From: Phoronis ovalis
Lineage: Eukaryota; Phoronida; Phoronidae
Direction: 5' to 3'
NCBI GenBank assembly: GCA_028565635.1
Contig: JAOXYB010054945.1
Span: 1 to 25,788, forward strand
Length of the DNA: 25,788 nt
Numbering within the stretch: position 1 is the stretch's first letter; each line of letters opens with the position of its first letter. Below the pieces are notes generated by a model, which was not told the origin of the DNA, made no database searches, and was given only the letters and a program-made list of their open reading frames with translations. Of this stretch, positions 8,101 through 25,443 are shown one piece after another. A program made the position numbers and the translations under genes.

Positions 8101-10299
8101 ATCAAGGAAACATTGACTTAAGTCAGCTTCCGATTCAGAGACAAAAATGAGATCATCTGGAAAGGGATAGATATAAGAAACACACAGAAATTGAAATCCT
8201 GGAGCATCAAATGCCAACATACTTTAAAGTACACATGATCTGGCGTCTTCATTTTTTTTTAAATATGGAGCCATCTAGTTAGGTTATTTAAAACATATGG
8301 TCAGCAGTAGATTTATTGGCCACCCTAGTTAGGTATGTCTACGTGAACATTCAAATGTTGGCTAGAAGTTATTGAAGCATTATGCCAATCAATATTTTTT
8401 CATCAACTGCAATTTGCGATTCAGGCGCCTGGTACAATATAAATTCATATCAACCATTTGCTGATGGGTTGAAAAATACAACTGCCATAGCGAGCAATGA
8501 GGAGAAAGCTTAGGTCACCAACTGTTCGAAAGCATAAAATCCCAGGGGGTCACTTGTGTAAAGGGTGGGTCCACAAGAGTTTTTAAAAAGCCCCTAAACG
8601 CTTATATAGCCTGCTAAAAAACACCCCTTTGACTTGCAGGTTTAAAAAGTGACCACTATATATATTGCGAAATATGCTGACGCGCTAGTTATAAGCCGTC
8701 CTAATTTTACGCAACTAATGGTGAAAAACATACCCTTATTTAATACTTTAAATACGTATCTTTATGACTGCATTTTATTGTGAAAAAACATTCTAAAAAC
8801 AACACCCTATTTGCCAATACTTAAATAAATATATCCCTTAACGCGGAACGCACGTTACTTGCCTCATTGAAGAAAATATCCCCTTTCACGTGATTTTTCG
8901 TTCGCGCATGTGGACTCTTCCTTGATCCATGTGACCCCCCTGGGCATAAAATTCACTCATTGTTGTGACGAAGCATGGTGCCTGCCATGGAAAAATCTTG
9001 TTGCTGTTACTTAGTGATAGCATCCAAATTTTAACAGCAAAAAAACGTTTCTTTGCTGCAATGTCAGACCATGTGCACCAATAAAAGTATTCTGGCATAG
9101 ATATTCTCCAAGACTCATGAGAACAAAATAGTATCAGTTATCAGTAAACAGAGTAAGAAGGGATACGTGACCTTCACGAGAACAGAAAGTAGAAATTGGA
9201 AAATATGACGATACATTCATTGCAGATAATAAAGTATTAATAAGAAGCGTATTTACGTAATAGAGTATAGTTCAAGAGATAGCGAAAGAAGCTCAGTCCT
9301 TGGAGGGGACTTGCGATACTACCATTCTGCGTAATATCCCCTTGTATGCTTGGCCAAGACGTTTTACAATATCCTGATAGTAACTCAAATCAAATTTCCA
9401 TGTGATCTACTTTGATGAATCCATGCATGGTTCAAGGCATAGTTGACAGCATACAGATGGGTAATATAACCATAGGTTATAGCTAGGTTCGTTGTTACTG
9501 GTGCCTGATCAACATTTACTGCTATGTGAATTTCCTATATACAAGCTGCACAAACTTTGGGTTATGTATATACGTATGTTATTTCGATTAGAGAAAAATA
9601 TTACTTTTAACTAAGTAAACTAATTAATTAAGACTTAGCTGAATCAATGAAAGTAAACAATTTTGTACTCGTTTTATAAATTAATTACACTTAAAATATA
9701 TTAAGCATGCAATATGTTATTGTCACAGTTTTAGCCATTTCATTTCCAGGAGTTTACTAGTATCTCTGTGATTAGAATTTGCAGAACTTATAAATAATAA
9801 TATGGAAAAACGAAATATAATTAATTCTCCAAACTTTTCGGAAAACTAGCTTTAGGAATTGAACTAAATATATGGTTTGTAAAAAAACATTTTATAGTAT
9901 CATTCCCTTGGAAATGAACCAAAAACAGCACGGAAAAACAAATTAAAAATATACATAATTATATTCTTCATGTTTTCCAAACAATAATATTTAAAACGTG
10001 GCTTATAAATACGGTTCTAGGCTTAGCTCATGATATATTACAATACTATTTTCTAACGCACCTAACACCAAAGAATCCTTGGTACCCCTGAAGTGTTGCA
10101 ACAGTAATGCTTGCACAGGAAGTCGGGACTGTGAAGAGAGTTACGTCAAGTTACTATATCAAAATAATGTACACGTAATAGCATTTATAAAGTTAAAAGA
10201 GAAAATACTAAGAAAAACAAACTTACCGTTTTTCGCCACAGCCATTAAATAGGTTTGAAAATGTATAAAAATTACACACAGATATATGATCCAATCCAT
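2027..10299 (-). CDS. nAChR-like Cys-loop receptor subunit, 5' part (exons 1-4)
   Basis: This is the 5' part of a nicotinic acetylcholine receptor-like subunit, a pentameric ligand-gated channel subunit of the plasma membrane. Exons are 10227-10299 (signal peptide), 3852-3997, 3304-3348, then either 2450-2559 or 2027-2136. What is seen: the exons join in frame, all junctions are GT/AG, and the lengths 146, 45 and 110 nt match the conserved nAChR exons 2, 3 and 4. Translated motifs include NEDKLIKDLFQNY, VSIGFTLIQLNNL, DEKRQVLTTSGW and W-x-D-x-RL-x-W...YGG...WLPD. These are the N-terminal helix, the first beta strands, the loop D tryptophan and the loop A region. The Cys-loop, TM1-TM4 and stop are missing because the gene runs off the low-coordinate edge of the window. 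The loop A tyrosine is replaced by Gln in both exon 4 versions, so classical acetylcholine binding by this subunit is doubtful. The family is confident; the link to exon 1, across 6.2 kb, is less so. Confidence 0.85.
2450..2559 (-). CDS. nAChR-like gene alternative exon 4a
   Basis: This 110-nt exon starts after acceptor tttatacacag and ends at AACAG|GTGCTC in phase 2. It encodes VWQDQRLQWDTDDYGG, then ITYTILPSTNTWLPDIALQN. This matches nAChR exon 4 (W-x-D-xx-L-x-W-xPxxYGGI...IWxPDIVLYN). The conserved loop A Tyr (IVLYN) is Gln here. It is first in transcription order of two tandem versions. Its length, 2 modulo 3, means that splicing in both versions or neither would shift the frame. Confidence 0.92.
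3304..3348 (-). CDS. nAChR-like gene exon 3 (45 nt, loop D)
   Basis: This 45-nt exon encodes DEKRQVLTTSGWMEV, matching the nAChR consensus DEKNQxLTTNxWLxQ. The Trp is the loop D aromatic residue of the ligand site. The acceptor is atttgttactag|GAC and the donor GTG|GTACGT. Exon 3 of nAChR genes is typically 45 nt and phase 0 at both ends, exactly as here. The Asn before the Trp region is changed to Ser-Gly. Confidence 0.92.
3852..3997 (-). CDS. nAChR-like gene exon 2
   Basis: This 146-nt exon begins after acceptor ttttcttgtag, with two bases completing a codon, and ends at CTG|GTGAGT in phase 0. It encodes 48 residues including NEDKLIKDLFQNYEKASR and KAITVSIGFTLIQLNNL. These correspond to the nAChR N-terminal helix (LLxDLFxNYNxxVRP) and strand beta1 (VxVxLGLTLxQL). 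The length equals that of the canonical nAChR exon 2. Confidence 0.9.
4181..4589. mobile_element. hAT-like MITE, family 1, complete copy
   Basis: This 409-bp element has inverted ends CCCGGGGTACTCA / TGAGTACCACCCGGG and is flanked by the 8-bp direct repeat CTCAGACT (4173-4180 and 4590-4597). The interior holds repeated GGGTAGCAATCCAA motifs and no protein. The 8-bp duplication is typical of hAT-group transposition. Confidence 0.85.
4598..5984. other. AT-rich intron of gene A, nothing recognised
   Basis: This is part of the presumed first intron of the receptor-like gene. It has no long ORF, inverted repeat or exon-like block that I could support. Confidence 0.6.
5985..6573. repeat. ~105-bp tandem array, about six diverged units
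   Basis: Units begin GACATAACGTGTGAGCCATA and contain TCGGTCATTGTCAATTTAAA and TATTTCGTACAGATCTGAGA. Starts are near 5988, 6073, 6204, 6311, 6417 and 6510. The 117-codon minus ORF at 5870-6223 is a by-product of this array. Confidence 0.9.
6574..7761. other. AT-rich intron of gene A, nothing recognised
   Basis: Low-complexity A/T stretches only. The 68-codon plus ORF at 7466-7672 has no protein-like features. Confidence 0.6.
7762..8220 (-). CDS. Hypothetical 152-codon ORF with 11-residue repeats
   Basis: I do not recognise this protein. It is the longest ORF in the window, with its own ATG and stop. The first ~85 residues look protein-like (acidic, with Cys in CFLDKLRTYC). Four perfect 11-residue repeats PDAILEPDLSI follow, encoded by the 33-bp minisatellite, then a short tail. 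No TATA box or splice site stands out. It lies in the long first intron of gene A on the same strand, so it may be a nested gene, a retrogene fragment or chance. Confidence 0.35.
   Translation of the reverse strand: MLAFDAPGFQFLCVSYIYPFPDDLIFVSESEADLSQCFLDKLRTYCHSHKWDAMTDEHIQVQYLKDKPDSTTDIKPVSTKVPDAILEPDLSIPDAILEPDLSIPDAILEPDLSIPDAILEPDLSIPEGMCLGEYHLHFAPNKSMTYTACYIL
7842..7973. repeat. 33-bp minisatellite, four copies
   Basis: Four adjacent 33-bp units beginning CGGGGATGCT (7842, 7875, 7908, 7941) differ by a single T/C change, so the expansion is recent. The period is a multiple of 3 and keeps the minus-strand ORF open. Confidence 0.97.
8541..8944. mobile_element. hAT-like MITE, family 2
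   Basis: This 404-bp element has inverted ends CCCAGGGGGTCAC / GTGACCCCCCTGGG and an exact 8-bp target duplication CATAAAAT (8533-8540 and 8945-8952). No coding capacity is seen. Confidence 0.85.
9257..9534 (-). pseudogene. Coding-like fragment, possibly family C receptor ligand-binding domain
   Basis: After a tatatag acceptor-like site, the minus strand reads EIHIAVNVDQAPVTTNLAIT, then YGYITHLYAVNYALNHAWIH. After a frame change near 9374-9410 it reads GYCKTSWPSIQGDITQNGSI, then ASPLQGLSFFRYLLNYTLL, ending at C|GTAAAT. The order Y-x-x-x-(V/L)YAxxYALxH...C..W...L..(F/Y)L.N resembles the ANF-type domain of metabotropic receptors. The two parts are separated by only ~37 nt, too short for a normal intron, so a frameshifted pseudogene is likelier. 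Low confidence. Confidence 0.3.
10227..10299 (-). CDS. nAChR-like gene exon 1: signal peptide
   Basis: The exon starts at an ATG (10297-10299) and encodes MDWIIYLCVIFIHFQTYLMA followed by VAKN plus one base. That is a hydrophobic signal peptide with a plausible A-V-A cleavage motif. It ends in an excellent donor, G|GTAAGTTT, in phase 1. Phase 1 is what exon 2 at 3852-3997 needs, and the junction would make an N-G-T glycosylation sequon. Assignment to the receptor gene is inferred from phase, signal-peptide content and order on the strand. A nearer alternative first exon in the 6.2-kb gap cannot be excluded. Confidence 0.5.
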
Positions 10300-12854
10300 A
10301 GCGGTATGTCGTCAAGTGGTAAGAATACTCCTTACAATGCTGAAAATCTTATCATATATAGATCTCACTTTAATAAGCTCTTAGAAATCAAATACCAATG
10401 AAATAAAGACTATTTAGTTAGGAAGAGACGATTCATGAAGTGCCAGAAGCAAAGGAAAATTGATTTCCGTTTAAAGTGTTCACTCAAGAGAGGGATGTGA
10501 TAGCTTGCTATAGGGAAAATGAACATCTGCGAAGCAACGCAGGATTTTCTACACCGTACAAATTTTCAAACAAAAAAATATCATTATCAAGACGTTTATT
10601 GTTCACATTTACAATTCATGAGACATGAACTGACTGGTTTTTGTTATCCACAAATAATAGGTTTCAACAAAAATAAGCAAATTTGTGCTAGGAAACAGTG
10701 ACATCTAGCCGCGACATTAATGTTGACCTCAGTACAGATCGTGTTATTTACTGTATCAATTAAGTTGTTTCTAATTAATTTATGTAGTTTGTTCTTACTA
10801 TTTGTCTTCCTCCACAATTAAATAAAGATCAATGTTACAACTGATGTCTATTTTAGGTAATATTCTAATGAACAGTTTTTCTAACAGTATAATATTTTAT
10901 GCACATTGTAAGTGTCGATTCATGGAAGAGGACGCGCCATATTATTTTAATAACATATTAAAATATGTAAATCCTATTATGTGCAATTATTAATCGTAGA
11001 TTTCTTCAGGTGTCCTCCTCTTACTTACGCTTTACATAACGTTCTTCCACATAAAATGTGCATCGCAAATGGTTTCCCTTTTATTTCTAAAATATGACAT
11101 CTAATTGAAAATAATTAATCGTGGCATAAAAAGGTGGTTTTAATTTTCACAAGTGGAGATTATAAAAAAAAAATATTTTCGTTTTTTTTTGCGAAACGAT
11201 AGTCGTCAGGCGACATCTCGTGACTTAGTAAAATTTGGTGTACCGTTTTTTGTTGTAGACGGCAGTGGTATAATAGGACATTGAATTATGTAAAGACAAC
11301 TTGCATTAGATTGAAATTCATTATATTGTAATTTAGTTTACAAAAATATACATAACATTTTAAAATACCTGTGCCCATGAGCATTGATTGCAAACAATAT
11401 TTTGAACATTTTAAAACAGAAAATTTATAATTATCCTTAATTTAAAATCAAGTATAATCTGATGTCACACTCCTGAATGGCATCTGCATCTGTATACAGA
11501 ATTGACAGATTGAAAGTGTTTCTTGACAGACAAGCTATTATAATTATAGTAGTTGGTCCCACAGCTCAATTGTGAAAACTGAATAATTAAATGACCAGCC
11601 CATAAGGCACAGTCAATACACTATTTTTGATTTTTTTAGTAACAGGCGACTTGACACCTTGGACTTCATACTTGAATACTAATATGCCTAAACACTATAT
11701 AATATATACTTTTAACAACACTACTTATCAATTATCCATATTTCAGATCTAAATACAAATACTGTTGTCACAGGCAGTGAGATTAGACTTGTGAGATGCC
11801 AATTAAAAATCATTGTCAACTAACGTTTTTGAGGGAAAGTATACTAAAGAAAGACCTATCACATATCTTGTGCAAATTCATCCTAAAACTGCTCCAATAA
11901 ATCATACAAGTCTATCAAGTGTGGTAATTTTATTGCCAAAAGTCCATTTTAATAATTACAGCATGACCAACCTTTGTTTCTCCATAGTTCAAGAACTGAT
12001 GGGAATTGAAGGTAATAAACTTTAATGTCTTTTGAATGTAATGTCAATTTAACTCGAAACTTGCTACAAAGGTACTTGTTGGAACATTCCTTTTTGATGT
12101 CCCAATCAGATTTAGCACCAAATACCAAATATGATAGGGACAAAGATAATTTACATCCCTCTAAACTATAAGAAGGATTACTAATTTTTAAATGAATTAA
12201 ATTTTCTAATAAGTTACGTCTGTTACATCACTGGAACCAGAGATTCATTACAATGAATACCAACAAATTGGGACCAAAAACCTCTTCTCACAGATTCACA
12301 AATTAAAGCAAAATTACATTTTGCCTGATATGATTGTTGCTTCACTCCCTATCCAGTACTTGGATATGTTTGACACACGATACACCATACTGTGTTATAT
12401 TGCATGTATAAGTGTACCTAAGAAATGTTAGTTCAGTTTGTTATTTGAACAAGTATAATTTAAATTTTAGCATTTTAACATGTTTTTCACTTAAATTAAT
12501 ATCACGTGTAATGGGCACTAAACTTTACATCAATGCCAGAAGCAATCACTGAGTTCAAAGCAGATCCCTAAGCTCCATTATTTAGAACTGATGTCATGGT
12601 ATACATGCAAGAGACATTATCCTAAAATATTTCTTCACTACATAGAACAGGCAATCAATACTACACTTGTCATCTGTTTAATTAAGGAAAACATTGAGGC
12701 CCTAACTCTTCTACAGGTTAAAAGATTTTTTTGGCATCCCTCATATTACAAAAATGAATTAAACGTACAAAATAAAATTTAAATTTCATGAATTACAGAT
12801 TTTTGTCATTTTCAAAGCAGTCATAATAATTTATAACTTGATATCTTATTGTTG
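10300..12854. other. Gap between gene A and gene B, nothing recognised
   Basis: This lies upstream of the receptor signal-peptide exon and downstream of the transporter stop, both on the minus strand. It should hold the gene A promoter and 5' UTR and perhaps gene B transcription termination. Sequence is AT-rich with several short ORFs that lack protein-like composition. No clear TATA or CpG feature was found. Confidence 0.55.
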
Positions 12855-12862
12855 GTGGAAAC

Positions 12863-13267
12863 CCGGGGGGGGGGGGGTACTCATGGTTTTTGACTACGGG
12901 GATGTGCCGCCCAACCCAATCCAAAATATTAACTTGTGGTAGCAAACCCAAATCGAATTTTTTTGAAATATAAGGGTAGCAAAAACATTTTATGAAATAT
13001 AAGGGTAGCAATCCAAAATTTTAAAATATTTGAGTATGGCAATCTATTTTTACACAAACTGACTGATACAAACCAAATTGCAAAATCTATTTATTTATGT
13101 ATACAAACCTAAAAATAATCCAAATTATTTGTTATACAATGGATAGCTAAATTTTTTGAATTTCTTTACAGGTCGCAATCCAAAAATACATTTAAGTTTA
13201 CAATCCAAATCCAAAATTTTCAACTGGGTTGCACACCCCCACCAAAAAATAACTTGAGTACCCCCGT
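12863..13267. mobile_element. hAT-like MITE, family 1, copy in gene B 3' region
   Basis: This copy has the same ends and interior as the one at 4181, with a target duplication GTGGAAAC (12855-12862 and 13268-13275). It starts about 33 nt after the stop codon of the SLC17A9-like gene and includes a run of 13 G. It probably forms most of the 3' UTR. Confidence 0.85.
13090..13095 (-). promoter_or_regulatory. Candidate polyadenylation signal AATAAA inside a MITE
   Basis: On the minus strand, AATAAA lies about 205 nt after the stop codon of the SLC17A9-like gene, inside the transposon copy 12863-13267. I noticed no other AATAAA between the stop and this site. Use of the signal is inferred. Confidence 0.4.
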
Positions 13268-13300
13268 GTGGAAACAATAAAGTAATGTAAACCAATGTGT

Positions 13301-13470: not shown

Positions 13471-16400
13471 CTGAAATAAATCATAATGAACATAAAACAG
13501 TAAAGCATTTAGCTTAACACAGATACTCGAAATTCCTTAATATTCATTTGACACAAAATAGCGCTCTACAGGTGAAGTCATGCCTTTGCTTTGCTAAATG
13601 AACGACTTATTTAAATGAACCTGATAAATGCATACCTAATTTATAGGCAATTAATCCTGTGAGTGCTTTGCACCTTCTGATAATCTGACAGTTCTGATTT
13701 CGTGTTGAATAGTTAAAGTGATTCCACTTCGAAATTTTAAATCTCTACACAGTAAGTAAATCCAACCATCTGAGTTCCTACATGTATATCTGGATATTTG
13801 ATCTCTTTCTATAGAAATTCGCCTTCCACTTACTCCAATAATTAAGGACTGTTCCAGTAAAAAAAGTGGGGGAGGGGTGGGAAGGCACTTTCATTTTATA
13901 CCCACCACCCATAATTTTTAATTAGCTTGTAATGCAACCACCCATAATTCTGAACACAACCACCCACAATTTTTTATTTCAACTGCCTTCCCCCCCCTCC
14001 CCCACTTTTTTTACTGGAACAGCCCTAATTGAAATATCCCAGATGGTATGCAGAAAAATATCCTAACGATTAGCTTTCTCCATGATTTTTTTTTCATCAT
14101 GAGTATCATGTAAAAAAGCACCACCTGTGTGCTGGTGCCTACAAACAATTCATGATATTTGGCAAAAAGCCTTAGTGTAGGCAGCAAACTCATGGAGATC
14201 CTATCTGATGGGCATTCTACTTTTCATTCTTCAATGCAAGTTTGTATGAGACCTGCTTGTTGGAAAAACTTTTAAAAACCTGACATTCTATTTCCATAAT
14301 ATTTAATATGAAAGCGTCTAACTTTCATACAAATGCATACACACTACATACTCACCAAACACAGAACCAGAATATTTAGGCGCTATGTCTGTTGGATTGC
14401 ACAAAATTCCACTGTTATGAAAGCCCGAACACGCTATTGCCATCGCCATACAAAAAAGCGCTCCTTCATAATGCGTTACAAATGAAATCAGCACCAAAAA
14501 GAATGCAAGACCCAGCAGTGCCACAGTCTAGAAAATATGATATTTAGTCACTATAATCAGTAATTAGATTTTTCATGTAGCTGGGGTTGATTTCTCAAAA
14601 GTTATCGTATTTTAGACCAAATAATTAAAACCTTGTTTAACGGGTACAACTGCTTCAAATTTTGGTGTTTTCACTTTTAGTATTTTTTTTAATAAACCTT
14701 GTTCAACGTTTAATAGTCTTAAGACTGTCGTAAGATAGCTTTGAGAAACCACCCAAGCTATTACCTCACACCACTGATACACATTAAGAAATAATATTAC
14801 ATGACTATAAAAAATTCTTAAGAAAATCAAAAATTGGTTTTCAAGTGTTAGAATCAAAGAAATAGAAGGTATATTGTTATTAGCAAAAATGACACACAGC
14901 CTATGACTATGTGTCTATGCACTGTGTGCAATGGGCATAATAAAGGGCATAGTACAACATAATGTGCCACGATAAAAACACTATACCATAGGGGAGTCGC
15001 ACTTTATTGCAAACAGTAGTAAATGTATGTTCTTCATGGTTACATTATTTACAATTCGACACATACATGATAGTGGACCAATACCTTAGAAAATTCTGTA
15101 TAAATATTGCCATACTTACTGTCATAATTTTTCTAACTAACGTCACTGACATTCCTACAAGAAAAAAAAACAATTATCATTACAGCCACACGTGTATACT
15201 GAGATAAATGTGAATGAGACAACTGTCAAGTTGAAGAGAGGTAGCCACACAAAATATTTTTTCTGTCAGCTCTTTTTCAAGCAACAAAAGTAAATTTATA
15301 AGATTTTCAATTTCCTGGGGGTCCGGCTCAAATTAATGGTGGTACGCATGTGAGTGAACAAAAGTGCGCAAAAAAGGTGTTTTTTGAGAACAAAGCATGT
15401 TAACGCGCATTACACATACAAAAGTTACATACAAAGGGTACCTTATTTGATTAACTGCATGTGTTTAGGGTATCGAAAACTTCCTCTCTAAAGTTAATTT
15501 GTGACTGTCTTTTGTTTCAGAGGTTCGAATGGAAATTCCCATAATTCCTTTTTCCGGGAATTTTCCAAAAAATATTCTCAACGCATTTAGGATATCTAAA
15601 CTTTCTTCCAGTCAGTCAAATTAAAGGTTTAAAATTTTAAAATGAGAAAATGCATTTAGGGGCTTTTTCAAAAACCCATTCAAACACATGAGTACCAGCC
15701 CGGGGGGCAGTCAATATGAAAGTGGGTACACATGTTCCAACAAAATTTCACGTGAAAGAGAATGTTTTCGAACCATTGGTGTGTAACACGCGTTACGCGC
15801 TTAGGGTCTGTTTTTTGATTAAAATCACGAAAAGGGGTGGGTTTTTGGAGGTGTGACACTTCGTTAGGGGTGTTTTTTCCCAAAAGTCACTTCCTTAGGA
15901 GTGTAATTTTTCAAAAAACTCACTTCCTCAGGGGTGTATTTTTTGCAGAATTTCACAACGTTAGGGGCTTTTTTGAAAAGCCATGTTGGAACATGGGTAC
16001 CCAATTTCATATTGACTGCCCGCCCCTGGGTACCAGCAAATATACTTGAGTGGGGTTCAATTCATTAATAATAAAATACACTAGCTTTTAGTTACCTCTT
16101 GCTATTAGAGTATCAGCTAACCATCCACCAAATATTGCAGCTGGAATGGTAACAGCCCATGGAACAACATTAAACACCCAACCCTGAAACAATAAGTACA
16201 CTAGCTGAAGCATGGACATTACTCCAGACAGCATGAGGCACCAAATTATTAGTTGATCACACGTAGGTACTTTCCAACCTTTCTTCCCGGATAAGGGGTG
16301 ACCACTAGGCCAGTGTATAATTATATAAATGATACAATATGCAAACAAAACAAAATATGATTCAAACAAAATACAGCAACTGATACTATATACAAATTGA

Positions 16401-19400
16401 TAATGAAACATAGTGAACAGAAACAAGCAAATATAAACAAAATATTAAATATAACCTATTTACCACGAAGTAAAGTTTTATTTTAACCAAGCTTTTAGCA
16501 CCTACAAAGGACTTCCTGGGAGGGAAAAGTGGGCCAAAAATAGATTCAATTTATACTGAGTTCGGAGTATGCAAAATATAGTAACTGGAAATTAATATTG
16601 AACCATAAATGAACAGAAACAAGTCAAACATTTATAAAAATTCCAAAAAAACTAAAATAATCTATTTATTATATAACAACCTACAAAGGACTCTATAAAT
16701 ATGTTGGTACCCAGAACATTCGAATAAAACAAACTATTACCATGAGCAACATGTCCTATATATACACAATATAACACAGTATATAACACAGTTACACGAT
16801 CCAAAAATATTACCATAAGCAACATGTCCTATATATACACAATATAACACAGTTACACGATCCCAAAACTATTACCATGAGCAACATGTCCTATATATAC
16901 ACAATATAACACAGTTACACGATCCAAAAATATCTCATTTCACAGTAAATTGAAACCCACCTTAGAATCTACAAAGTTCTCTTTGAAATATGTTGGTAAC
17001 CATGACAACAGTATAGAGAAAGCATTAGACTCAGCAACATGTCCAATGAGCAGAGCCCTAAAAAAACACAAACACTGTTCCAACATTGAACACACTAATC
17101 CTGCATATCCTAGTACCCCGCCGACAGGTTTGCTGACGATTGTTCAATTGACCTTAAAAAACAGGTCAAGATCATGTACAAAATGTGAAGTCAACCAGCA
17201 GATTCTCACTGGGCTATATGATATAGATTATAGACTGCTCTACTAGATAAGCCTGAATTGTTATCAAGTGCACTTCATACAGATTTCAAACTTTAACCAC
17301 TGAATCCTTAAAAAAATCCAGAGGGCCAAACCAGGCGGGTGGCCTCTTAGTGTATGGAGTTGAAGGAGATATATGTCGCCGGCTCAAATATCTTGTTTGA
17401 TGAATTTTGTTATGTTTTGGGGCCCTCTTAACACACCTGCGGCACACTTTGAGAATAATTGTTGAGGCCAAGTCACGAATTCAATTGGAAAGGTACATTT
17501 TAGGTCTCCAGAAAATAACGTACAAATATCTCATAGAACAAATAACATTAGAACAACTGAACATTAAAAAACACTGAAATTTTGGGGTATGTTTCGAAAT
17601 TTTTGCTATATTTTGGTATTCATATTTCCACATTTTTGAGTTGAGCCAAAATTTTACCCTCAGTAGCATCCACCTCACAAAATATAACCAAGAGACCCCC
17701 AGAGATCCAAATATGCTTTGTCAGTCTTGAGATGATTCAAAACAGTCTTTCAGAGTTGACTATTGTGGTCTACAACTTTTTCCACTTGTAGCAAAATGAG
17801 GACTCAATTATTATAAGTTTCTCTGTGTCCCTTAGCAGCTGGTTTTTCTATGAAAATACTGTGTTAAGTATGGACAAAGATATAAGCTTAATATCACAAC
17901 CAATATATTGCTAACATAAGGGGCTTTTCTAATAAATTTATATTGCACGACAATTGTATATACCGTAGTAAGAATTGAAATCATATTGCAAATACTCTGA
18001 TTCAGCTTGCTTTTGCTTTATTTTTTAGTTTGATGCAGTGAATTATGTACTGTTGCTTCAAAACAGGATATAACTGATTCTACACATCGGCAACATAATT
18101 TTCCCAAAGTTCGCCCCTTTTCCAAAAGAACACCCAGTGATCTTTCACTATATGATCATGAAAACCCATAAAAAGAGCTATAGATTTTCTTATAGTTCAC
18201 CCTAAGCGTAGTTATAGAAACCCCTGGTTTAATTTGAAAATATTTTTAAACAAATAATTGGATTTTAGTATTAATTTTCTATGATTGTACATCAATGGAA
18301 TATTTTTCCCACACATACAAACCTTGTTCTCTATGACATCACAAAATATTGCATTATAATGACAGGGCTTCAAGCCAAATGCTCAATTGCCCATAATTTC
18401 AAAATGAATCGAGCAATTTTAATAATTTGTTTTGGAAATTATTCTCTAAGATATCAAAACCCACCAGAGCACCTACAAAGGATTCCTCGAAATATGTTGG
18501 TAACCATGACAACAGAATATAATGAGCATTAGTCATGGAAACATGTCCAATAATTAATCCCCTACAAAATAGAGGCACTGGTCGGGCAGTAAACAAGCTG
18601 ATCAGTTGAACAAAGCACAGTACCGACACCACCAGAGCTCTTTGGAGATGATGAAGGGGGCCAACAAGCAAGATGATCTCGACTAGCTGTTCATGGGACA
18701 AAGACATAGATAAAATTTTGACTGTTGATATGCATGGACTAAATTAACACCTAGACATGAGGATCAACTTTTAGTTGATCATACAGAGGTGCCTTCCAAC
18801 CTTTCTTACAGGATGAGGAATGATCACTATATTTCAAAATATGCAAATACAAAAAAAACAAAATATGTGCAAAACAAAATATAATAATTGAAAATCAATA
18901 GTGAACCATAGTGCACTCTAACAAGTCAAAAATTTATAAAAATGCCAAAAACTAATTAAAATAATCCATTTATTATATTATATACCAACTCAGCCTGCTA
19001 ACAACCTACAAAGGACTCTGTGAAATGTGTTGGTAAAATAAAAACAAACTAATACTTTGAACAACATGTCCAATATATACACAATATAACACAGTTATAC
19101 AGTCCCTGCATTGAGAAAATATCTCATTTCACAGTAAATTAAAACCCACCTTAGAAGCTACAAAGGTCTCTTTGAAATATGTTGGTAACCATGACAACAG
19201 TATAAAGAAAGCATTAGACTGAGCAACGTGTCCAATGAGCAGAGCCCTAAAAAACAAACACTGTTCCAACATTGAACAAACTGTTCCTGTGTATCCTAGT
19301 ACCCTACCGCCACGTTTGTGATAACTGATTATTTGATCATAAAAAACAGGTCAAGATCATTCACAGCATGTGAAGTCAACAATCAAGACAAGACAGTGAG

Positions 19401-22400
19401 ATCAAGACAGTGTACTTCTGACCTCTACATCCTTGAAAAGATCCGAGAAAGAAGTTCAATCCTGCTGGTCTATAGTGTATGTAGCTGAAGGAGATATGTT
19501 GCTGGCTCAAATATCCTATTTAATGAGTTTTGTTGTTTAGGGGAACCCTTTACACACATTCGGTATAATTTGAGAATAATTTTTGAAGCCTAGTCATGAA
19601 TTCCTTTGGAAACTTAAGGTATACTTTGGGTCTACAGAAAATAGTGTACAAATATCTCGTGAAATATTATTTTGAACAGTAAAAAATATTTTGTGGCATG
19701 TGTTGGATTTTCTTGTATATTTAGGTATCCATATTTCCACATTTTTGGTATAGAGTCGAGCCAAAATTTTTGCTCTCGGTGGCACCCCACTCCCAAAATA
19801 TAACCAAGAGACCCCCGGTGATCCAAACATGCTTTGTTCTTGAGATGCATTCAAAAACAGCCTTTCAAAGTTGACTATTTTAGCCTATAAATATATAGAA
19901 AAGCAACTTTTTCCATTTTTCACTGCAAAAATGAGGACTCAATTAAACTCCTCTGTATCCTTGAATAGCTTGATTTTTTATGAAAATACTGTGTTAATAA
20001 GAAGGAGACAAGGTAGGAACAAAATTATGAGCTTAATTTGTAACAAATCTATTTCATATATGAATTTATATTGCATGACAATTTTGAACTTGCAACGAAG
20101 CTCTTGTGTATAGTTAGAATTAAAATACATAATAATTGAAATTTTATGATTCAACTTGCTTTTGTTTTATTTTTTAGTATGATGCAGTGTGATATGCAAT
20201 GTTGCTTCAAAACATGATAAACCCAAGAGTGATCTTTCAGCATGTGAAAAAACCTGTAAAAAGAGCCCAGTTTCTGTACCAAAATTGTTTATAATAAGCT
20301 ATAATTCTTCGTGTGTCTCTGAGGGCTGCCATTAAAAGAATCATTTTGTGGTGACAAGGGAGAACAAGGTTTGTGTGTGTACTAGTTATATATAATGAAA
20401 ACCAACATAATTCACCTTTGTTTTCTACTCATATGCAATGGCTTGATTTCTAAAATTTTCCAAATTTTCTAAAATATAATACTTTGGAAACTATTCGCTG
20501 AAGATACCAAAACCCACCTTAGCATTTACAAAGGATTCCTTGAAATATGTTGGTAACCATGACAACAGAATGTAATGAGCATTAGTCGTAGAAGCATGTC
20601 CAATAATTAACGCCCTACAAAACAGAGACAAAGCATGGCTGGTATACTAGTCAAAGAACAGTATTGACACCGCCACAGCCGTTCAGAGTTGATGACAGGG
20701 AACATAAACAGAAGACCTTAACCTAGCTCCTCATGGGACAAAGACGTACATAAAACTTTGACTGTTATGATTCCAAACAAAATGACTGTGCTACCTATCA
20801 GCCAATTCAAAACAGTCTTTTGGGGAAAAAACAGAGATCCAGGTTTGCTTTGTTCTTACAATTTACAAACAGCCCTATTAGCTTGATTGATAAGAGTATG
20901 GCTTGTAATCCCGAGATCAAGGGTTCGATTCTCACTCTGCACTGAAATTTCTTTTTGTAGTGGTTTGTCGGGCAGCATGTCTTATATGTGTACTAAGTAA
21001 GTGCAATGCGCTGATTAGCAACCTTGCTGTTTGCTCCCCAGGGAGTTCAGATGGTTTTTGGAGTGAACAGAACTGTATAAGCAGGGGGAAATCATGCAGA
21101 GTCTCGTGAAAACTTTGGTTAATACAAGCCAGACTATAAATCTATACCTTTACCTTTATAACAGACAACCACATAACCAACAACCCTAATGGCAGGATAT
21201 TTACAACGAAAAAGCAGACTCGATAGTTTTGTCTTCGAGAGAAGGTGTATGTCTTATATTAAGGCTATGCTAGAGCCTTGTTACGGCTTTAGAAATTTCG
21301 TGAAAATCCGGCGAATTAAATTATTTTCATACAAGATAAATGTTTTCTTAAATTTTAACATTCAGGTTATTTGTTATAATGTCATTTTCAGTCTTGTGTG
21401 TGAAAAACGTGAAATTTATTAGTCTTTAACGACACCTAATCACACCATAAAATTCTAAAGGTACATTCTACAGAAAAGCCCATGGATCTAAATGAACGCT
21501 CATTATGTTTTTAAAAAGTAAACCCACCTTAGCGCCAATAAAAGTTTCCTGGAAATATGTTGGTAACCATGACAACAGTATGAAGTGGGCATTTGTCTTA
21601 GCTACTTGTCCTACAATTAATGCCCTACAAAAAAGACACAGTACCAACATTGAACAGGCCGATCCGGTTGATCACAGCACACTATTACATCACCGATCTT
21701 GTTCAGAGATGATGACAGGCTGGCAGCTTGATAATGATGAACTCAAAACCTAGCACATCATGGAGCAAAAATGTAGATCAAACATTGACAAGTCAGACAA
21801 ACAGACAGACACATAATTGGAAGTTAGATATTTCTATGTCCCCCAAGCCTTGGCGGCAGGGGACAAAAGATATGAGTGAGAAAACAGTAAATCTAAACAG
21901 TACACAGTACTTCTGTACTAGCAGGAAAATTCCAATTGATTAGCACTATTATGCTGATTAATTATACATGCAAATTTATGGCACTTATGGCAGTACATAC
22001 AAAACAGTAACTCACAGAATCACTAAAGATACCTTGTACACTAAATTGTTTCTACATAATTAAACATTTTTGTTACAAATGTTTGGAGAGTTGCTTCAAT
22101 TCTGGTTACTAAATGTAGGCCTTAACTGAAATGTTTTTTTTGATACGATGCTGGAAAAATTATAAATCTTGGTTACAAATACTTACCAAAATCCTGCCTT
22201 TGTAAAAAGAGTATAATATGGTACAGGATTACCAGAGCGTAGCTCAGGTGATGTTTCTGTTTTAATCTTAACAGCCTGAGATATATTGTCCTTTATTGAA
22301 ATAATTTGCGTTTTCCGCCTGTCCTTTGCTATTAATACAAATCTAAGATATAGTAACCATAACATATCAAGAAAACCTACAAAATAAATTAAATCAAATT

Positions 22401-25400
22401 AAATTAAATCAACATTACTTTTGTGCACATCACAATATATTAAGAGCTCAACAAAATGAAATTTACCGTAATAATTTATTTTTTAAATAATTTGTGTAAA
22501 TGTTTCATTTGCAGCTAATAAGATTTTCCGTCAACTTATTAATGAAGTATGAGACACAACAAATTACCTACTAAATAAAATGAGCTTTGCCAGCCATACT
22601 TATCCATAAATAAGGATCCTATACTCCCACAGAACAATGTTCTACAAAACAGAATGTGAGGTGTGTAGTTACAAAAGGATGTATAAGCATTAAAATACAG
22701 CCACAGTCAAAGTATTTTTCTAAAAGTTATCTTTTGTGATGCACTCCACTAATTTTCTATACACATACTGGCGAGCATATGTAAAAAAGTAATGAAGATT
22801 TGTATAAAAGTTATCTTTTGTGATTTTCTATATATACTGATGAGTAAAAAAGTAATGAAGCTGCAACACAACAGGTAAGTTTACTTAGATTACATATCAG
22901 TCACAACCAGTTACTATAAATGATACAATAATCCAGCTCAAAGTATACAGGAATGATAGTCAGGCTGACAACATAATTGCAAAATTGTTTTGAGCATTTC
23001 CTGTAATTAAAGACAAAATATCTAAAATAAATGAATGTTGAAAAGAACAACAAAAATTTAACATTTGCCTGACAAATTAATAGAATAAAAAGACATAAAA
23101 TTACCCTGCATGAGATCCTGCAGTAATTGTACTATAAGCTAAAGTTCTTTCTCCTGCTGAAATCTTCTTAGAAACTATACTAGACACACTGGGATAATGC
23201 ATACCTGTAACATACATATATACACACTTGAAACAACAACTTTATTGTGCCTCATAATGCCAAAATTAATAAATTGTTTAGGGGCTGTTCTTTAAACCTA
23301 TGTTGATGCATATGGACCCATCCTTAACACAGGTGTTTGGTTCACACAATTAATATCAAGATTGTCAATTACTATAGTTAAATTTTTCCAATAGCTGAAC
23401 AATCTTCATTTAAAATGTCAGTAACTTGTAGCTCACACAAGACATGCCAACATACCTTGACAACAGCCTAACAATACTCTTGATATAACAATGACAGTTA
23501 TTGCTGAGCCTTTTTCATCAAATAAATAGCATATACGTGGTGTCCAAAAGGTAATGAGTGACCAACCAATACCGGCTACACATATAACAATATCCCCACC
23601 AAGTTTGTCGCTGAGATATCCACCAAGGACTTGTGTCATCATATAGCCCCAGAAAAATGCGGATAAAACGGTACCCTGTAATATATGTAAGCATGCTGTT
23701 AATGTACCCAATAAATAAACATATCTGTATTGTAGATTTTTAAAAATTCAGATATCATAGTAGTCACAGAAAAATTTTTTTTGGCAATTATGTTTCACCA
23801 GAGGTATGCAAAATGGGTATTCACTGACTTTGAATAAAATATGAACCAAGAAAATAGTTTAGCAGCAAATAAATTATGATAATTATACACATTGTGATCT
23901 TTTCAATTTATTTGAAGAATAGACCTGACATAGAGCATTAGACATTCCGACTCTTATAATTATGTCCTCAGGAATAAAATATCTTCTATTAATGCTCTAC
24001 CAATAGCATCAGAAATAAATGTTTTGAGCCTATGAATTGTACAGAAGTCTCTGATAGTAACATGCTTTAATTATTAAACTGCATATTTCATGAAAAAGTA
24101 TTCCATTCATGTACAAGTATCATGGGCAGATACAGAAATTCAACAGCTGAGAACTTTTTAAATTTTTTTTTTATATATCTGCCTGGAATCTGGTACATTC
24201 TAAATTGTTTTATATCTTTAGCAAATATATTTCTTATACTACTGTATTTAGCACCTTTGAATGCTTTGACAGAATATTATTTTCATTAATTGTTACACAT
24301 TAATTACATTATTATATTATTTTTAAATAGGTTTTCTCATGCTTGGCTATTCCAGTCTCCCCCTAGTACTGCATAAGCACCAAGCAAACTATAATTATAA
24401 TGACAAATCTTTAAAATTAAAAACAAATGTACGTAAATGTTTGGAATTTTCCTGTTGATATGTCATATATTACAACATAAAATATATCAACTCATTAATT
24501 TGTTTTCATAAACCATTGTTTCCTGATTTTTTAAATGTCAGGTAAACCTTAATAATTATATACCATAATTGATTGCTAGTTTGTAACTGCATCAAAACAG
24601 GACGTAGGGGTAAATCAACTGATGGAACAGCCATGAGATGATTATTCGGGGGGGGGGTGGGAACTTCAGTAATGGGTAAATTGCAAGTTATTATGCGAAT
24701 TCATATTCCCATAAAGTAAAGACCCAATTAAACATACATAATAACCAAAACAAACTAATAACACAATCAATTATTAAGCATTCATAGTTGCATACAAATG
24801 GAAACCAGCAGAGCCAGCATAAATCTATAATGGCCACTGTATATACAATGATGTGGGATTGTAGTGGGTAGGGTTGCTAAACATTAACAATGTAAGCATT
24901 ATTATTGATACAGAAACAAATCATTGCATTAACACTAAAGCAAATGGCTGTTATATCTTTACATTAAAATGCATTATTGAAGCACAAACAATAATTTAGA
25001 CAAATGGATGCAAACCCACACAATTTATTACAAATGCAGATTTAATGATTAAGGTTTTTAATACAAACTAAAAAATATATTAACATAAACTTTGAACAGT
25101 TCAAAACATTTTGTATAATTTTACAGACATTTGAATATGTTTCAAATACTCAACAAAACATTGAATGAATTTCATAAATATTAAAAAAATCCATTCAAGC
25201 GTGTGACAGACAAGACAGCAGGATTATTTTCCTAACCTTATTCTGACATTGGTTAATATGTTTCTGGACATAAGTCTTTTTTACATGAAAACATATGTGT
25301 GACAGAAATTTCTTACAGATTGTGTTTTATCCCACTTTAGTTCTTCAGCAATTTTCACCACACATAATGGCATGACAGTTCTTGCTGAATACAACATGGC

Positions 25401-25443
25401 ACAGCCAAAAAATAAACTTCCAGTCCACACTTTTTTCTCAAAT
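13301..25443 (-). CDS. SLC17A9: SLC17A9-like (VNUT) vesicular transporter, lacking first exon
   Basis: This gene encodes a 12-TM major-facilitator anion transporter of the SLC17 family, closest to SLC17A9, which loads ATP and other nucleotides into secretory vesicles. Exons, in order: 25317-25443, 23456-23675, 23105-23204, 22568-22641, 22187-22376, one of five TM7 exons, 16096-16183, 15120-15154, 14356-14527 and 13301-13470 with TAA. All phases agree and give about 423 residues after the missing first exon; the human protein has 436. Motifs seen: WTGSLFFGCAMLYSARTVMP (TM1, with the Arg essential in VNUT), GGYLSDKLGG (MFS motif A), SRVLLGCCQG (TM4 Arg), YGWQSSFY, ILLSWLPTYF, GWVFNVVPWAVTIPA, VRKIM and GFHNSGILCNPTDIAP. 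The start codon must lie above 25443, probably outside the window. Among SLC17 members, SLC17A9 fits better than sialin or VGLUT. Confidence 0.93.
13846..14025. mobile_element. PIF/Harbinger-like MITE
   Basis: This 180-bp element has ~40-bp inverted repeats (GGACTGTTCCAGTAAAAAAA, then GTGGGGGAGGGG, and the complement). It is flanked by TAA on both sides (13843-13845, 14026-14028), a 3-bp duplication as in Harbinger elements. The interior has three ACCACCCAYAATT motifs. It lies in the last intron of gene B. Confidence 0.7.
14356..14527 (-). CDS. SLC17A9: SLC17A9-like exon: TM9-TM10
   Basis: This 172-nt exon has acceptor tcatattttctag|ACT and donor TTTG|GTGAGT, phases 0 to 1. It encodes TVALLGLAFFLVLISF, then an acidic loop and MAIACSGFHNSGILCN followed by PTDIAPKYSGSVF. 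The FHNSGI..N..DIAP motif corresponds to FNHSGISVNIQDLAP of SLC17A9. Confidence 0.94.
15120..15154 (-). CDS. SLC17A9: SLC17A9-like 35-nt microexon: TM8-TM9 loop
   Basis: This microexon has a strong acceptor (tttttttttcttgtag) and a perfect donor (ACA|GTAAGT). With the preceding G it encodes GMSVTLVRKIMT, matching human GYRAITVRKLMQ. Phases 1 to 0 agree with both neighbours. Confidence 0.88.
15314..16055. mobile_element. hAT-like MITE, outer element of a nested pair
   Basis: The left end CCTGGGGGTCCGGCTCAA...TGGTACGCATGTG pairs with the right end (reverse complement CCCCACTCAAG...TGGTACTCATGTG). Flanks TTCAATTT (15306-15313) and TTCAATTC (16056-16063) are a near-perfect 8-bp duplication. A second element is inserted in its right end. 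Confidence 0.7.
15700..16029. mobile_element. hAT-like MITE, inner element of a nested pair
   Basis: This element has a ~40-bp inverted repeat (GGGGCAGTCAATATGAAA...CATGTTCCAACA and its complement) and an exact 8-bp duplication GTACCAGC (15692-15699 and 16030-16037). The interior holds about four diverged 33-bp repeats of the type ACTTCSTTAGGGGTGT (15855-15985). It lies in the intron between the TM8 exon and the microexon. Confidence 0.85.
16096..16183 (-). CDS. SLC17A9: SLC17A9-like exon: TM8
   Basis: This 88-nt exon has acceptor cttattgtttcag|GGT and donor AGAG|GTAACT, phases 0 to 1. It encodes GWVFNVVPWAVTIPAAIFGG, then WLADTLIAR, nearly identical to human GWIFNVVPWLVAIPASLFSG. It is the shared acceptor for any of the five TM7 exons. 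Confidence 0.95.
16491..16519 (-). pseudogene. Short TM7 exon 3' end relic R3
   Basis: The minus strand reads CCAGGAAGTCCTTTGTAGG followed by TGCTAAAAGC. It resembles the 3' end of V2/V4 (GAATCCTTTGTAGGTGCT or close) with a one-base insertion. Only about 29 nt can be aligned. Confidence 0.5.
16677..16756 (-). pseudogene. Decayed TM7 exon relic R1
   Basis: On the minus strand this starts at GGACATGTTGCT (V5-like) and continues through ACCAACATATTT and GAGTCCTTTGTAGG. It therefore aligns with the alternative TM7 exons. It lacks the exon start and acceptor, carries a one-base length change before ACCAACATATTT that shifts the frame, and has lost the donor. Confidence 0.75.
16736..16931. repeat. 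Triplicated minisatellite derived from exon relic
   Basis: There are three copies of a ~62-73-bp unit starting ATTACCATGAGCAACATGTCC and ending CACGATCCAAAA, at 16736, 16809 and 16871. The first 21 bases are the 5' end of relic R1, so exon-derived sequence has been tandemly amplified. The sister unit near 19040-19115 has only one copy. Confidence 0.85.
16961..17057 (-). CDS. SLC17A9: Alternative TM7 exon V5 (E version)
   Basis: This 97-nt exon, last of the cluster, has acceptor gtgtttgtgttttttag|G and donor TCTAAG|GTGGGT. It encodes ALLIGHVAESNAFSILLSWL, then PTYFKENFVDSK. Residue 9 is Glu (17030-17032), a charge reversal relative to the Lys of V1. It is most similar to V3. Confidence 0.91.
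18465..18561 (-). CDS. SLC17A9: Alternative TM7 exon V4 (M version)
   Basis: This 97-nt exon has acceptor gcctctattttgtag|G and donor GCTCTG|GTGGGT. It encodes GLIIGHVSMTNAHYILLSWL, then PTYFEESFVGAL. Residue 9 is Met (18534-18536). It differs from the other four in beginning with Gly instead of Ala and ending in Leu instead of Lys before the junction with GWVF. The donor's -2/-1 bases are TG rather than AG, so this donor may be weaker. Confidence 0.88.
19003..19073 (-). pseudogene. Decayed TM7 exon relic R2
   Basis: On the minus strand this contains ATTGGACATGTTG, TACCAACACATTTC and GAGTCCTTTGTAGG, the TM7 exon pattern with internal deletion, frame loss and no usable splice sites. It is the partner of relic R1 in the neighbouring duplicated unit, at the same offset from V3 as R1 has from V5. 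Confidence 0.7.
19150..19246 (-). CDS. SLC17A9: Alternative TM7 exon V3 (Q version)
   Basis: This 97-nt exon has acceptor cagtgtttgttttttag|G and donor TCTAAG|GTGGGT. It encodes ALLIGHVAQSNAFFILLSWL, then PTYFKETFVASK. Residue 9 is Gln (19219-19221). It is a near-copy of V5, including the intronic flanks. Confidence 0.92.
20518..20614 (-). CDS. SLC17A9: Alternative TM7 exon V2 (T version)
   Basis: This 97-nt exon has acceptor gtctctgttttgtag|G and donor GCTAAG|GTGGGT. It encodes ALIIGHASTTNAHYILLSWL, then PTYFKESFVNAK. Residue 9 is Thr (20587-20589). The frame is open with no stop, and the flanks resemble those of V4, showing descent from a shared duplicated unit. Confidence 0.92.
20871..21160 (+). 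mobile_element. tRNA-derived SINE
   Basis: The 5' part resembles a tRNA(Thr)-like body with an A box (TAGCTTGATTGA, 20879-20890) and a B box (GGTTCGATTCT, 20922-20932). A non-tRNA body of about 200 bp and a short tail with repeated ACCTTT follow. It is inserted in the intron between V2 and V1. Flanking duplications are not clear. Confidence 0.7.
21528..21624 (-). CDS. SLC17A9: Alternative TM7 exon V1 (K version)
   Basis: This 97-nt exon, first in transcription order, has acceptor tgtgtcttttttgtag|G and donor GCTAAG|GTGGGT. It encodes ALIVGQVAKTNAHFILLSWL, then PTYFQETFIGAK. It aligns without gaps to the human segment ending FILLSWLPTFFEETFPDAK. Residue 9 is Lys (AAG, 21597-21599). V1 has Gln at residue 6, where V2-V5 have His, and it stands apart from the V2/V4 and V3/V5 pairs, so it may be the ancestral copy. 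Confidence 0.92.
21644..21656 (-). promoter_or_regulatory. Shared element upstream of V1 acceptor (branch-point region?)
   Basis: CCAACATTGAACA on the plus strand (TGTTCAATGTTGG in the transcript) sits about 20-32 nt upstream of the V1 acceptor. Identical 13-mers occur at 19266-19278 before V3 and 17080-17092 before V5. The distance fits a branch-point region; function is inferred. Confidence 0.45.
21701..21789 (-). promoter_or_regulatory. Conserved intronic element upstream of V1
   Basis: GTTCAGAGATGATGACAGG at 21701 is matched by GTTCAGAGTTGATGACAGG at 20681 (before V2) and GGAGATGATGAAGGGGG near 18644 (before V4). A second block starts TCATGG at 21758, 20731 and 18691 and ends TTGAC. Both lie 65-165 nt upstream of the exons, where splicing selector elements could lie. 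Confidence 0.4.
22187..22376 (-). CDS. SLC17A9: SLC17A9-like exon: TM6 and central loop
   Basis: This 190-nt exon runs from acceptor aatttattttgtag to donor TTTTG|GTAAGT, with phases 1 to 2. It encodes GFLDMLWLLYLRFVLIAKDR, a hydrophilic cytoplasmic loop, and VPYYTLFTKAGFW at the end. The final Trp codon is split: TG here, plus the G that begins every TM7 exon. The donor therefore serves all five alternatives. Confidence 0.92.
22568..22641 (-). CDS. SLC17A9: SLC17A9-like exon: TM5-TM6
   Basis: This 74-nt exon has acceptor cattctgttttgtag and donor GTAG|GTAATT, with phases 2 to 1. It encodes TLFCGSIGSLFMDKYGWQSS, then FYLV. The YGWQS(I/S)FY motif is an SLC17 hallmark. Confidence 0.93.
22721..22861. 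repeat. Tandem duplication in intron of gene B
   Basis: Two diverged copies share AAAAGTTATCTTTTGTGAT, TTTTCTATA and GTAAAAAAGTAATGAAG; the second is shorter. They lie between the exons at 22568-22641 and 23105-23204. Confidence 0.8.
23105..23204 (-). CDS. SLC17A9: SLC17A9-like exon: TM4-TM5
   Basis: This 100-nt exon has acceptor atgtatgttacag and donor GCAGG|GTAATT, with phases 1 to 2. It encodes GMHYPSVSSIVSKKISAGER, then TLAYSTITAGSHAG, equivalent to GVYFPALTSLLSQKVRESER...YSIVGAGSQFG of human SLC17A9. Confidence 0.93.
23456..23675 (-). CDS. SLC17A9: SLC17A9-like exon: TM2-TM4
   Basis: This 220-nt exon, from phase 0 to phase 1, has acceptor catatattacag|GGT and donor CAAG|GTATGT. It encodes GTVLSAFFWGYMMTQVLGGY, then LSDKLGGD and a stretch ending VIVISRVLLGCCQ. 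It carries MFS motif A between TM2 and TM3 and the TM4 Arg of ISRVLLG, conserved through SLC17. Confidence 0.94.
23676..25316. other. Long intron of gene B
   Basis: This 1.6-kb AT-rich intron lies between the TM1 and TM2-TM4 exons. It has a G run (24649-24660) and no extra exon copy or recognisable element. Confidence 0.8.
25317..25443 (-). CDS. SLC17A9: SLC17A9-like exon: TM1
   Basis: This 127-nt exon follows acceptor ttaattttcag and ends at TCT|GTAAGA in phase 0. The first base completes a codon begun in an upstream exon not seen here. It encodes FEKKVWTGSLFFGCAMLYSA, then RTVMPLCVVKIAEELKWDKT and QS. The Arg after LYSA matches the TM1 Arg that is essential in VNUT and contacts substrate in VGLUTs. 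Confidence 0.93.

Follow-up and report, generated by a model that had tools for sequence, protein, structure and literature searches.

The window analysed here, a stretch of 25,788 nt from Phoronis ovalis, contains a putative SLC17A9-type (vesicular nucleotide transporter) gene in which the TM7 exon has been duplicated in tandem, and its five copies (V1–V5) have probably been kept as mutually exclusive alternatives, one per mRNA. Clusters of mutually exclusive exons are a known kind, and an SLC17A9-like gene would be a new setting for one. We found no SLC17A9 exon cluster in the literature listed, as judged by titles and the openings of abstracts. When spliced fragments representing each of the five forms were searched against proteins, four of 38 candidates matched (the best 57% identical), none from this species.

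The nine constant exons, together with any single V exon, form an SLC17A9-like frame of 423 residues (Table 1). The spliced protein is 59–61% identical to the best named SLC17A9 proteins across 100% of the query and 62% identical to a protein of Solemya velum, and it matches the MFS_1 domain (E 3.4e-45). In addition, its TM4 arginine, R108, which aligns with R184 of VGLUT2, is invariant in all 120 homologues listed of 447 matches. This full-length homology, together with the MFS_1 domain and the TM4 arginine, bears out the SLC17A9/VNUT-like identity given in the preliminary description. Should the acceptor directly preceding 25443 go unused, an in-frame ATG at 25466-25464 could start the frame instead. 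Nucleotide and protein searches of the 77.4-Mb assembly found no second SLC17A9-type gene, and the flanking constant exons were each matched once. Rfam at gathering thresholds gave zero matches within the window. The COX1 sequence of the assembly comes nearest to that of a phoronid, with 90% identity to Phoronopsis harmeri; this result and the 62% identity to the Solemya velum protein led to the rejection of a Solemya-like bivalve as the source, which mitochondrial gene order had at first suggested.

Table 1. Exons, duplicated blocks, exon remnants and the common 27-nt stretch in the window.
Feature	Position	Strand	Remarks
Constant exon e1	25317..25443	-	Readable frame begins here
Constant exon e2	23456..23675	-	Spliced frame and protein match
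Constant exon e3	23105..23204	-	Spliced frame and protein match
Constant exon e4	22568..22641	-	Spliced frame and protein match
Constant exon e5	22187..22376	-	Donor gtaagt follows ...TTTTG, which supplies two bases of a Trp codon; protein match
Variable exon V1	21528..21624	-	97 nt, encodes WALIVGQVAKTNAHFILLSWLPTYFQETFIGAK; W split with e5
Variable exon V2	20518..20614	-	97 nt, encodes WALIIGHASTTNAHYILLSWLPTYFKESFVNAK
Variable exon V3	19150..19246	-	97 nt, encodes WALLIGHVAQSNAFFILLSWLPTYFKETFVASK
Variable exon V4	18465..18561	-	97 nt, encodes WGLIIGHVSMTNAHYILLSWLPTYFEESFVGAL
Variable exon V5	16961..17057	-	97 nt, encodes WALLIGHVAESNAFSILLSWLPTYFKENFVDSK
Constant exon c1	16096..16183	-	After ttcag, begins GGT TGG at a codon boundary; protein match
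Constant exon c2	15120..15154	-	35 nt; spliced frame, no separate protein match
Constant exon c3	14356..14527	-	Spliced frame and protein match
Constant exon c4, with stop codon	13301..13470	-	Spliced frame and protein match
Duplicated block, copy A (V2, V3, remnant)	18727..20900	-	Aligned stretch, limits approximate
Duplicated block, copy B (V4, V5, remnant)	16184..18830	-	Aligned stretch, limits approximate; overlaps copy A in a common spacer
V remnant downstream of V3	18998..19074	-	blastn: 77 nt, gapped alignment to V3 at 70% identity
V remnant downstream of V5	16678..16759	-	blastn: 82 nt, gapped alignment to V3 at 76% identity
27-nt stretch, V1 copy	21552..21578	-	CTGTTGTCATGGTTACCAACATATTTC, the same in each V exon
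27-nt stretch, other copies	20568-20542, 19200-19174, 18515-18489, 17011-16985	-	In V2, V3, V4 and V5

The five V exons are intact. Each is preceded by a T-rich acceptor ending in TAG, starts with G, and is followed directly by a GTGGGT donor (5/5 for both sites); read after TG, each is open over 33 codons. The exons, their splice sites and the lack of stops are thus as first described, and so are the identical phases, with the TG end of e5 and the GGT TGG start of c1 fitting every copy. Pairwise identity is 72–95% over 97 nt without a gap, a likeness among the predicted exons that is beyond chance, and V1 as the query detects the V1–V5 loci only in the assembly at E <= 0.001. Tandem, homologous exons of equal length, with common phases and intact splice-site sequences, are the features by which a mutually exclusive cluster is recognized, and all are present here at the level of the sites. 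The introns between successive V exons measure 913, 1271, 588, and 1407 nt, and are therefore not too short in the way that steric exclusion between the copies would require. With GTGGGT donors and AG acceptors, the V exons presumably involve no mixture of U2 and U12 sites.

What, then, restricts the message to one V exon? All 32 possible sets of V exons were spliced in silico between e5 and c1. Only five sets remain open, each with exactly one V exon, while the other 27 stop early. The early claim that zero, two, three, or five copies break the frame is correct, but its corollary that four copies keep it holds for length only: all five of the four-exon sets stop after 279 residues, because the second V exon is thereby shifted into a frame with a stop. 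Likewise, five isoforms follow from the cluster, and the “at least” once attached to that number does not. The premature stops lie at least 228 nt upstream of the last exon junction (computed for zero and two V exons), and each further V exon adds 97 nt to this distance. In this cluster of five, stop codons, besides length, forbid every wrong combination.

The history of the copies can be read from their alignment. A block duplication copied V2–V3 into V4–V5, as the alignment of the duplicated stretches indicates. The exons of the resulting pairs, V2/V4 and V3/V5, differ at 16/194 sites without any indel, as compared to 312/1454 aligned intron sites of the same duplication (Fisher p 3.5e-6 for exon versus intron change). 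The same blastn alignment, whose first row yielded these counts, has 72 gap openings, and in a neutral simulation both pairs stayed intact with a probability of about 4e-6. Two further copies, downstream of V3 and V5, have decayed into remnants that have lost both the frame and the GTGGGT donor, and weaker short V-like matches lie at 16894-16866 (E 0.10) and 16513-16495 (E 0.74). The eight older V pairs, with 8 to 14 synonymous changes at 15.2–16.2 sites, have dS values of 0.54–1.28 and dN/dS values of 0.13–0.46. The dN/dS values of the two recent pairs, V2/V4 and V3/V5, are 0.82 and 1.24, from only 3 and 1 synonymous changes, so few that relaxed constraint, gene conversion, and diversifying selection are indistinguishable. 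Together with the premature stop in every zero- and multi-V set, the slower change of the exons than of the introns and the two decayed copies support the mutually exclusive splicing predicted earlier, at the level of the sequence.

These rates suggest that the five copies have been kept by selection. Gene conversion is another potential cause of the likeness of the exons, including their identical 27-nt stretch; we consider it somewhat unlikely, and it would still be compatible with exclusive splicing, so that it overlaps with the explanation we prefer. The likeness of V3 and V5 extends into their flanks, where 7/60 sites differ upstream and 1/30 downstream, and within the 27-nt stretch 8/8 testable codons are identical in every V pair, both as expected of conversion. 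However, the rest of the exon is strongly diverged in the eight older pairs, which would limit conversion to about 27 nt, although the Fisher test of this core against the rest of the exon gives p 0.018 at best and favours neither view decisively.

It is improbable that use is limited to one or two of the V exons, with the others being tandem leftovers which have not yet decayed. The two remnants in the same introns demonstrate that such decay takes place, and the dN/dS values near 1 in V2/V4 and V3/V5, from few changes, fit this reading. On the other hand, the copies are old, with dS values of 0.65–1.28 between V1 and the other V exons, and while the introns of even the youngest duplication are about 21% diverged with many gaps, all five exons retain their length, frame, and both splice sites. 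We also give little credence to dose control, in which the inclusion of no or several V exons would destroy the message and thereby set the amount of the transporter rather than its kind. The early stop in all 27 sets, far enough upstream of the last junction for decay, would serve this purpose, but a single duplicate would suffice for it, the eight older pairs retain constraint at the protein level, and the greatest difference among the V exons falls at a column that is critical for transport in VGLUT2. Finally, a stacking of haplotypes or repeats in tandem by the assembly is hardly credible: the introns are repetitive and the assembly is fragmented (4805 contigs), but the copies differ by 5–28% in exons and by about 20–30% in introns, far above the haplotype level, and the flanking exons were each matched once.

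Returning to mutually exclusive use, we propose the following course. The TM7 exon would have undergone several tandem duplications, one of which copied a block of two exons, and in each mature mRNA a single V exon would link e5 to c1. Transcripts with no or several V exons would be removed by nonsense-mediated decay. Splicing factors or competing RNA pairing could make the choice among the V exons, and the 27-nt stretch that these exons have in common may take part in it. Allowing for <=3 mismatches, the last 26 nt of this stretch have five occurrences in the 77.4-Mb assembly and no others. A search for its pairing partner gave no signal, as 15/20 shuffles were as good or better. In a docking-selector test of four dock/selector region pairs with 12 shuffles each, the best score was matched by 3/80 and 3/40 shuffles, which is non-significant after four trials. 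The isoforms would share the constant parts of the transporter and differ most opposite Arg322 of VGLUT2.

How would the exchange of TM7 affect the transporter? The V exons align without gaps to TM7 of VGLUT2 and sialin through their variable first half, in agreement with the TM7 assignment made at the outset. The ILLSWLPTYF motif is invariant, and the variation lies on both sides of it. Position 10, which is K, T, Q, M, and E in V1–V5, respectively, is the sole column where all five exons differ, and it aligns with R322 of VGLUT2 (chain 7t3o). The R322A mutant of VGLUT2 reportedly gave no significant currents (PMC6057745), and R88 and R322 are said to coordinate glutamate (PMC12240346). Position 15 (F, Y, F, Y, and S) aligns with Tyr306 of sialin, and the alanine substitution of this residue lowered transport, as PMC11116495 reports. 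Position 10 is variable throughout the family (entropy rank 112 of 412 columns), and among the 120 homologues listed of 447 matches it is mostly E, Q, or H and never R; its role in VGLUT may therefore not hold in SLC17A9.

The five predicted isoforms may thus differ in substrate or proton path, and the cluster probably tunes transport. Vesicular transporters are usually viewed as one gene, one cargo class. It is conceivable, and we suggest it tentatively, that TM7 swapping yields five transporters with distinct substrates or coupling, so that splicing sets the vesicle cargo (ATP, other nucleotides, or other anions) with position 10 as the specificity switch. If so, a splice cluster would let one nucleotide-transporter gene supply several specificities. 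It would also provide five natural variants at one site as a test of the role of this TM7 position in the SLC17 family.

The SLC17A9/VNUT proteins of molluscs and other animals have the TM4 arginine in common with the present protein, but the homologues differ from the V exons at positions 10, 14, and 30. Among the 120 listed of 447 matches, position 10 is Thr in none, Met in one, and Lys in two; the His at position 14 of V1, V2, and V4 occurs in none; and position 30, which is proline in 115, is not proline in any V exon. In Aplysia and Mytilus, the isoforms annotated as X2 carry H at V position 10, a site that is E in most relatives. The V region of Aplysia is 0.74 identical to that of Biomphalaria (0.78 in the rest of the protein), whereas six chosen mollusc pairs, all of the E kind, are 0.87–0.90 identical in V; however, the Aplysia V region resembles an E-type scallop and Mytilus equally (0.77). 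These values are only a hint of alternative TM7 exons in Aplysia and Mytilus, as the protein database merges isoforms.

VGLUT2 and sialin, like the present protein, are members of the SLC17 family, and their structures have been solved; Arg322 of the former and Tyr301 and Tyr306 of the latter correspond to sites that vary among the V exons. We found no description of TM7 exon variants in the portions of the VGLUT2 and sialin literature covered. Dscam1 and the other docking-selector clusters resemble the V cluster in their tandem homologous exons, used one per mRNA, and competing RNA pairing is described there (PMC6071210, PMC4588896), whereas pairing in the V cluster scored as given above. The Drosophila MRP gene (multidrug-resistance like protein 1) has clusters of two and eight mutually exclusive exons (PMC4588896), and arrays of tandem exons are stated to have evolved repeatedly among MRP genes across phyla (PMC6071210). 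MRP belongs to the ABC transporter family and its exon use was seen in cDNA reads (PMC4588896), whereas the present cluster is known from genomic DNA; both genes, however, encode a membrane transporter with a large tandem cluster of mutually exclusive exons, here a predicted one.

On the minus strand of the window lies an almost complete gene with GT-AG introns, and its nine constant exons (e1–e5 and c1–c4, 5′ and 3′ of the alternative exon cluster) together with any single one of the five alternative 97-nt exons, V1–V5, give an open frame of 423 residues. The gene may start in an upstream exon beyond the contig, before e1, or at the in-frame ATG at 25466. The spliced protein belongs to the major facilitator family (PF07690, E 3.4e-45) and shares 59–61% identity over the whole query with the best proteins named SLC17A9, which bears out the SLC17A9-like identity proposed in the preliminary description; several of the top matches carry the label “hypothetical”. 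No second such gene was found in the 77.4-Mb assembly (4805 contigs), where 13 of the 14 matched places lie on the gene's own contig, and the fourteenth, outside it, matches weakly over 45 residues. The single COX1 match in the same assembly lies on a mitochondrial contig of 15,713 bases (27% GC, near complete by eye, with TGA read as Trp). Among the best 120 of 7999 matches, this COX1 is closest to that of Phoronopsis harmeri (90% identity), followed by one unnamed record (87%) and the rest, mostly molluscs (86% or less). The source is thus probably a phoronid, provided that the two contigs belong to the same animal.

Constant exons of the SLC17A9-like gene
Exon	Position	Strand	Remark
e1	25443-25317	-	constant
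e2	23675-23456	-	constant
e3	23204-23105	-	constant
e4	22641-22568	-	constant
e5	22376-22187	-	constant, then V1–V5
c1	16183-16096	-	constant, after V exons
c2	15154-15120	-	constant
c3	14527-14356	-	constant
c4	13470-13301	-	constant, carries stop

Elsewhere in the window, a 153-aa open frame at 7762-8223 (minus strand), with four head-to-tail copies of the 11-residue PDAILEPDLSI recognized by eye, is perhaps an exon of another gene. Apparent copies of one dispersed repeat, with the pattern TTGGATTGGGTT..CGGCACATCC..CGTA.TCAAAAA..ATGAGTACCCC, were seen by eye at the window start (1-110), downstream of the gene (4190-4600), and just past its last exon (12830-13300). A tandem array at 5960-6560, also seen by eye, has a repeat unit estimated very roughly at 100 bases, around TTGACAATGACCGATGG..AAAGACAC.

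The five V exons proved intact, as first described: each begins after a T-rich stretch with TAG|G, ends at |GTGGGT, is entered in phase 2 and left in phase 0, and contains no stop. When all 32 possible V sets were translated in genomic order, only the five single-V sets had an open frame. The set lacking V exons reaches a stop after 258 residues, and the sets with two, three, four, or five V exons do so after 277 or 279 residues, without exception. The expectation that four copies would also keep the frame was thus half right: the length is restored, but the frame is closed in all four-V sets, because the second V exon is then read in a frame holding a stop. In mRNAs with no V exon or with two, the stop is 228 to 365 nt upstream of the final exon junction, and each further V exon adds 97 nt to this distance, which is as a rule sufficient for nonsense-mediated decay. 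At the sequence level, the wrong V sets are excluded by stops, and with shifted-frame stops nonsense-mediated decay could in principle police all of them. Mutually exclusive splicing is the best explanation of the cluster, and a likely one, judging from its sequence.

How might one V exon be chosen? The introns between successive V exons (913, 1271, 588, and 1407 nt) are too long for steric exclusion. The V splice sites resemble the consensus of the major type. A docking-selector scan in four trials gave one weak signal, which shuffled versions reached 3 times in 80 and 3 times in 40.

A 27-nt stretch, CTGTTGTCATGGTTACCAACATATTTC, is identical in V1–V5, including all synonymous positions, and its last 26 nt occur at five places in the assembly and nowhere else at three mismatches. 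In the eight older pairs (all except V2/V4 and V3/V5), synonymous changes elsewhere in the exon number 8 to 14 at 15.2–16.2 sites, while the core, counted one codon longer than 27 nt, shows 0 or 1 at 7.7 sites. For same-residue codons only, the lowest Fisher p for core against rest is 0.018, and the other nine pairs all exceed 0.04; the excess synonymous conservation is therefore no more than suggestive. In 20,000 trials in which the invariant columns were shuffled, no run of 27 arose, although this control disregards protein constraint. The stretch could serve as a common splicing element or reflect a patch of gene conversion. No RNA-pairing partner for it stood out, as 15 of 20 shuffles were as good or better.

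Repeat analysis shows a block duplication of V2 and V3, with the surrounding sequence, that yielded V4 and V5. When the two blocks are compared in the principal blastn alignment, which spans 1934 columns with 328 mismatches and 72 gap openings, changes affect 16 of 194 sites in the exons, as compared to 312 of 1454 aligned intron sites (Fisher p 3.5e-6), and the exons contain no gaps. The intron drift is understated here, if anything, since a whole-block MAFFT alignment, which includes poorly alignable parts, has 537 of 1692 sites changed outside the exons and near flanks. When neutral change was simulated at the rate seen with blastn, both young pairs (V2/V4 and V3/V5) stayed intact with a probability of ~4e-6. 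Their synonymous (4/47, p 0.03) and nonsynonymous (12/151, p 3e-5) changes both fall below the intron rate; their dN/dS values, 0.82 and 1.24, are based on very few changes. Across the eight older pairs, dN/dS is 0.13–0.46, and V1 differs from the other V exons with dS of 0.65–1.28 and dN/dS of 0.13–0.25. Two further V remnants, after V3 (77 nt) and V5 (82 nt), have broken frames and lack the GTGGGT donor, and may be a single old remnant copied along with the block. At a position where P is found in 115 of 120 homologues among the matches listed, all five V exons encode I or V, from which we infer that the exons probably expanded within this lineage.

In the SLC17 fold, the V exons correspond to TM7; ILLSWLPTYF is constant in all five, and variation lies on both sides. 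Only at position 10 of the encoded peptide do all five differ from one another (K, T, Q, M, and E, from V1 to V5), and an ungapped alignment places this position opposite R322 of full-length VGLUT2 (chain 7t3o). The R322A mutant of VGLUT2 is reported to have no significant chloride or glutamate current with unimpaired expression (PMC6057745), and glutamate coordination is ascribed to R88 and R322 (PMC12240346). Position 15 (F/Y/F/Y/S) lies opposite Tyr306 of sialin, where alanine is reported to have lowered transport (PMC11116495). Positions 7 (Q/H), 10, and 14 (H/F) probably share one helix face, as they are spaced three and four residues apart. Any role of position 10 in SLC17A9 is putative, because homologues among the matches listed have mostly E, Q, or H and no R, and this column varies across the family (entropy rank 112 of 412 columns). 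R108, the TM4 arginine that aligns with VGLUT2 R184, is kept in 120 of 120 homologues, and R21 in all 113 having a residue there, among the matches listed; both are encoded by constant exons. R21, putatively the TM1 arginine, lies beyond the VGLUT2 alignment and has only a non-significant sialin match. Altered transport properties between the V isoforms are plausible, and a true specificity switch seems rather unlikely.

Among mollusc relatives, most have E at position 10, while Aplysia isoform X2 and two Mytilus isoform X2 proteins have H, a hint that alternative TM7 exons are possible there too. Two predicted Mytilus edulis proteins, ~78% identical overall, look identical in their last ~70 residues, as if tandem gene copies shared terminal exons or gene prediction had merged them.

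The titles and opening abstract lines of the papers listed yielded no report of an SLC17A9 exon cluster. Mutually exclusive exon clusters, with two and eight members, are reported for Drosophila MRP (PMC4588896), and MRP genes of other phyla are said to have gained arrays of this sort several times (PMC6071210). The cluster proposed here resembles that of Drosophila MRP as a large exclusive exon cluster in a transporter gene, and, given these reports, such clusters are of an already known kind.
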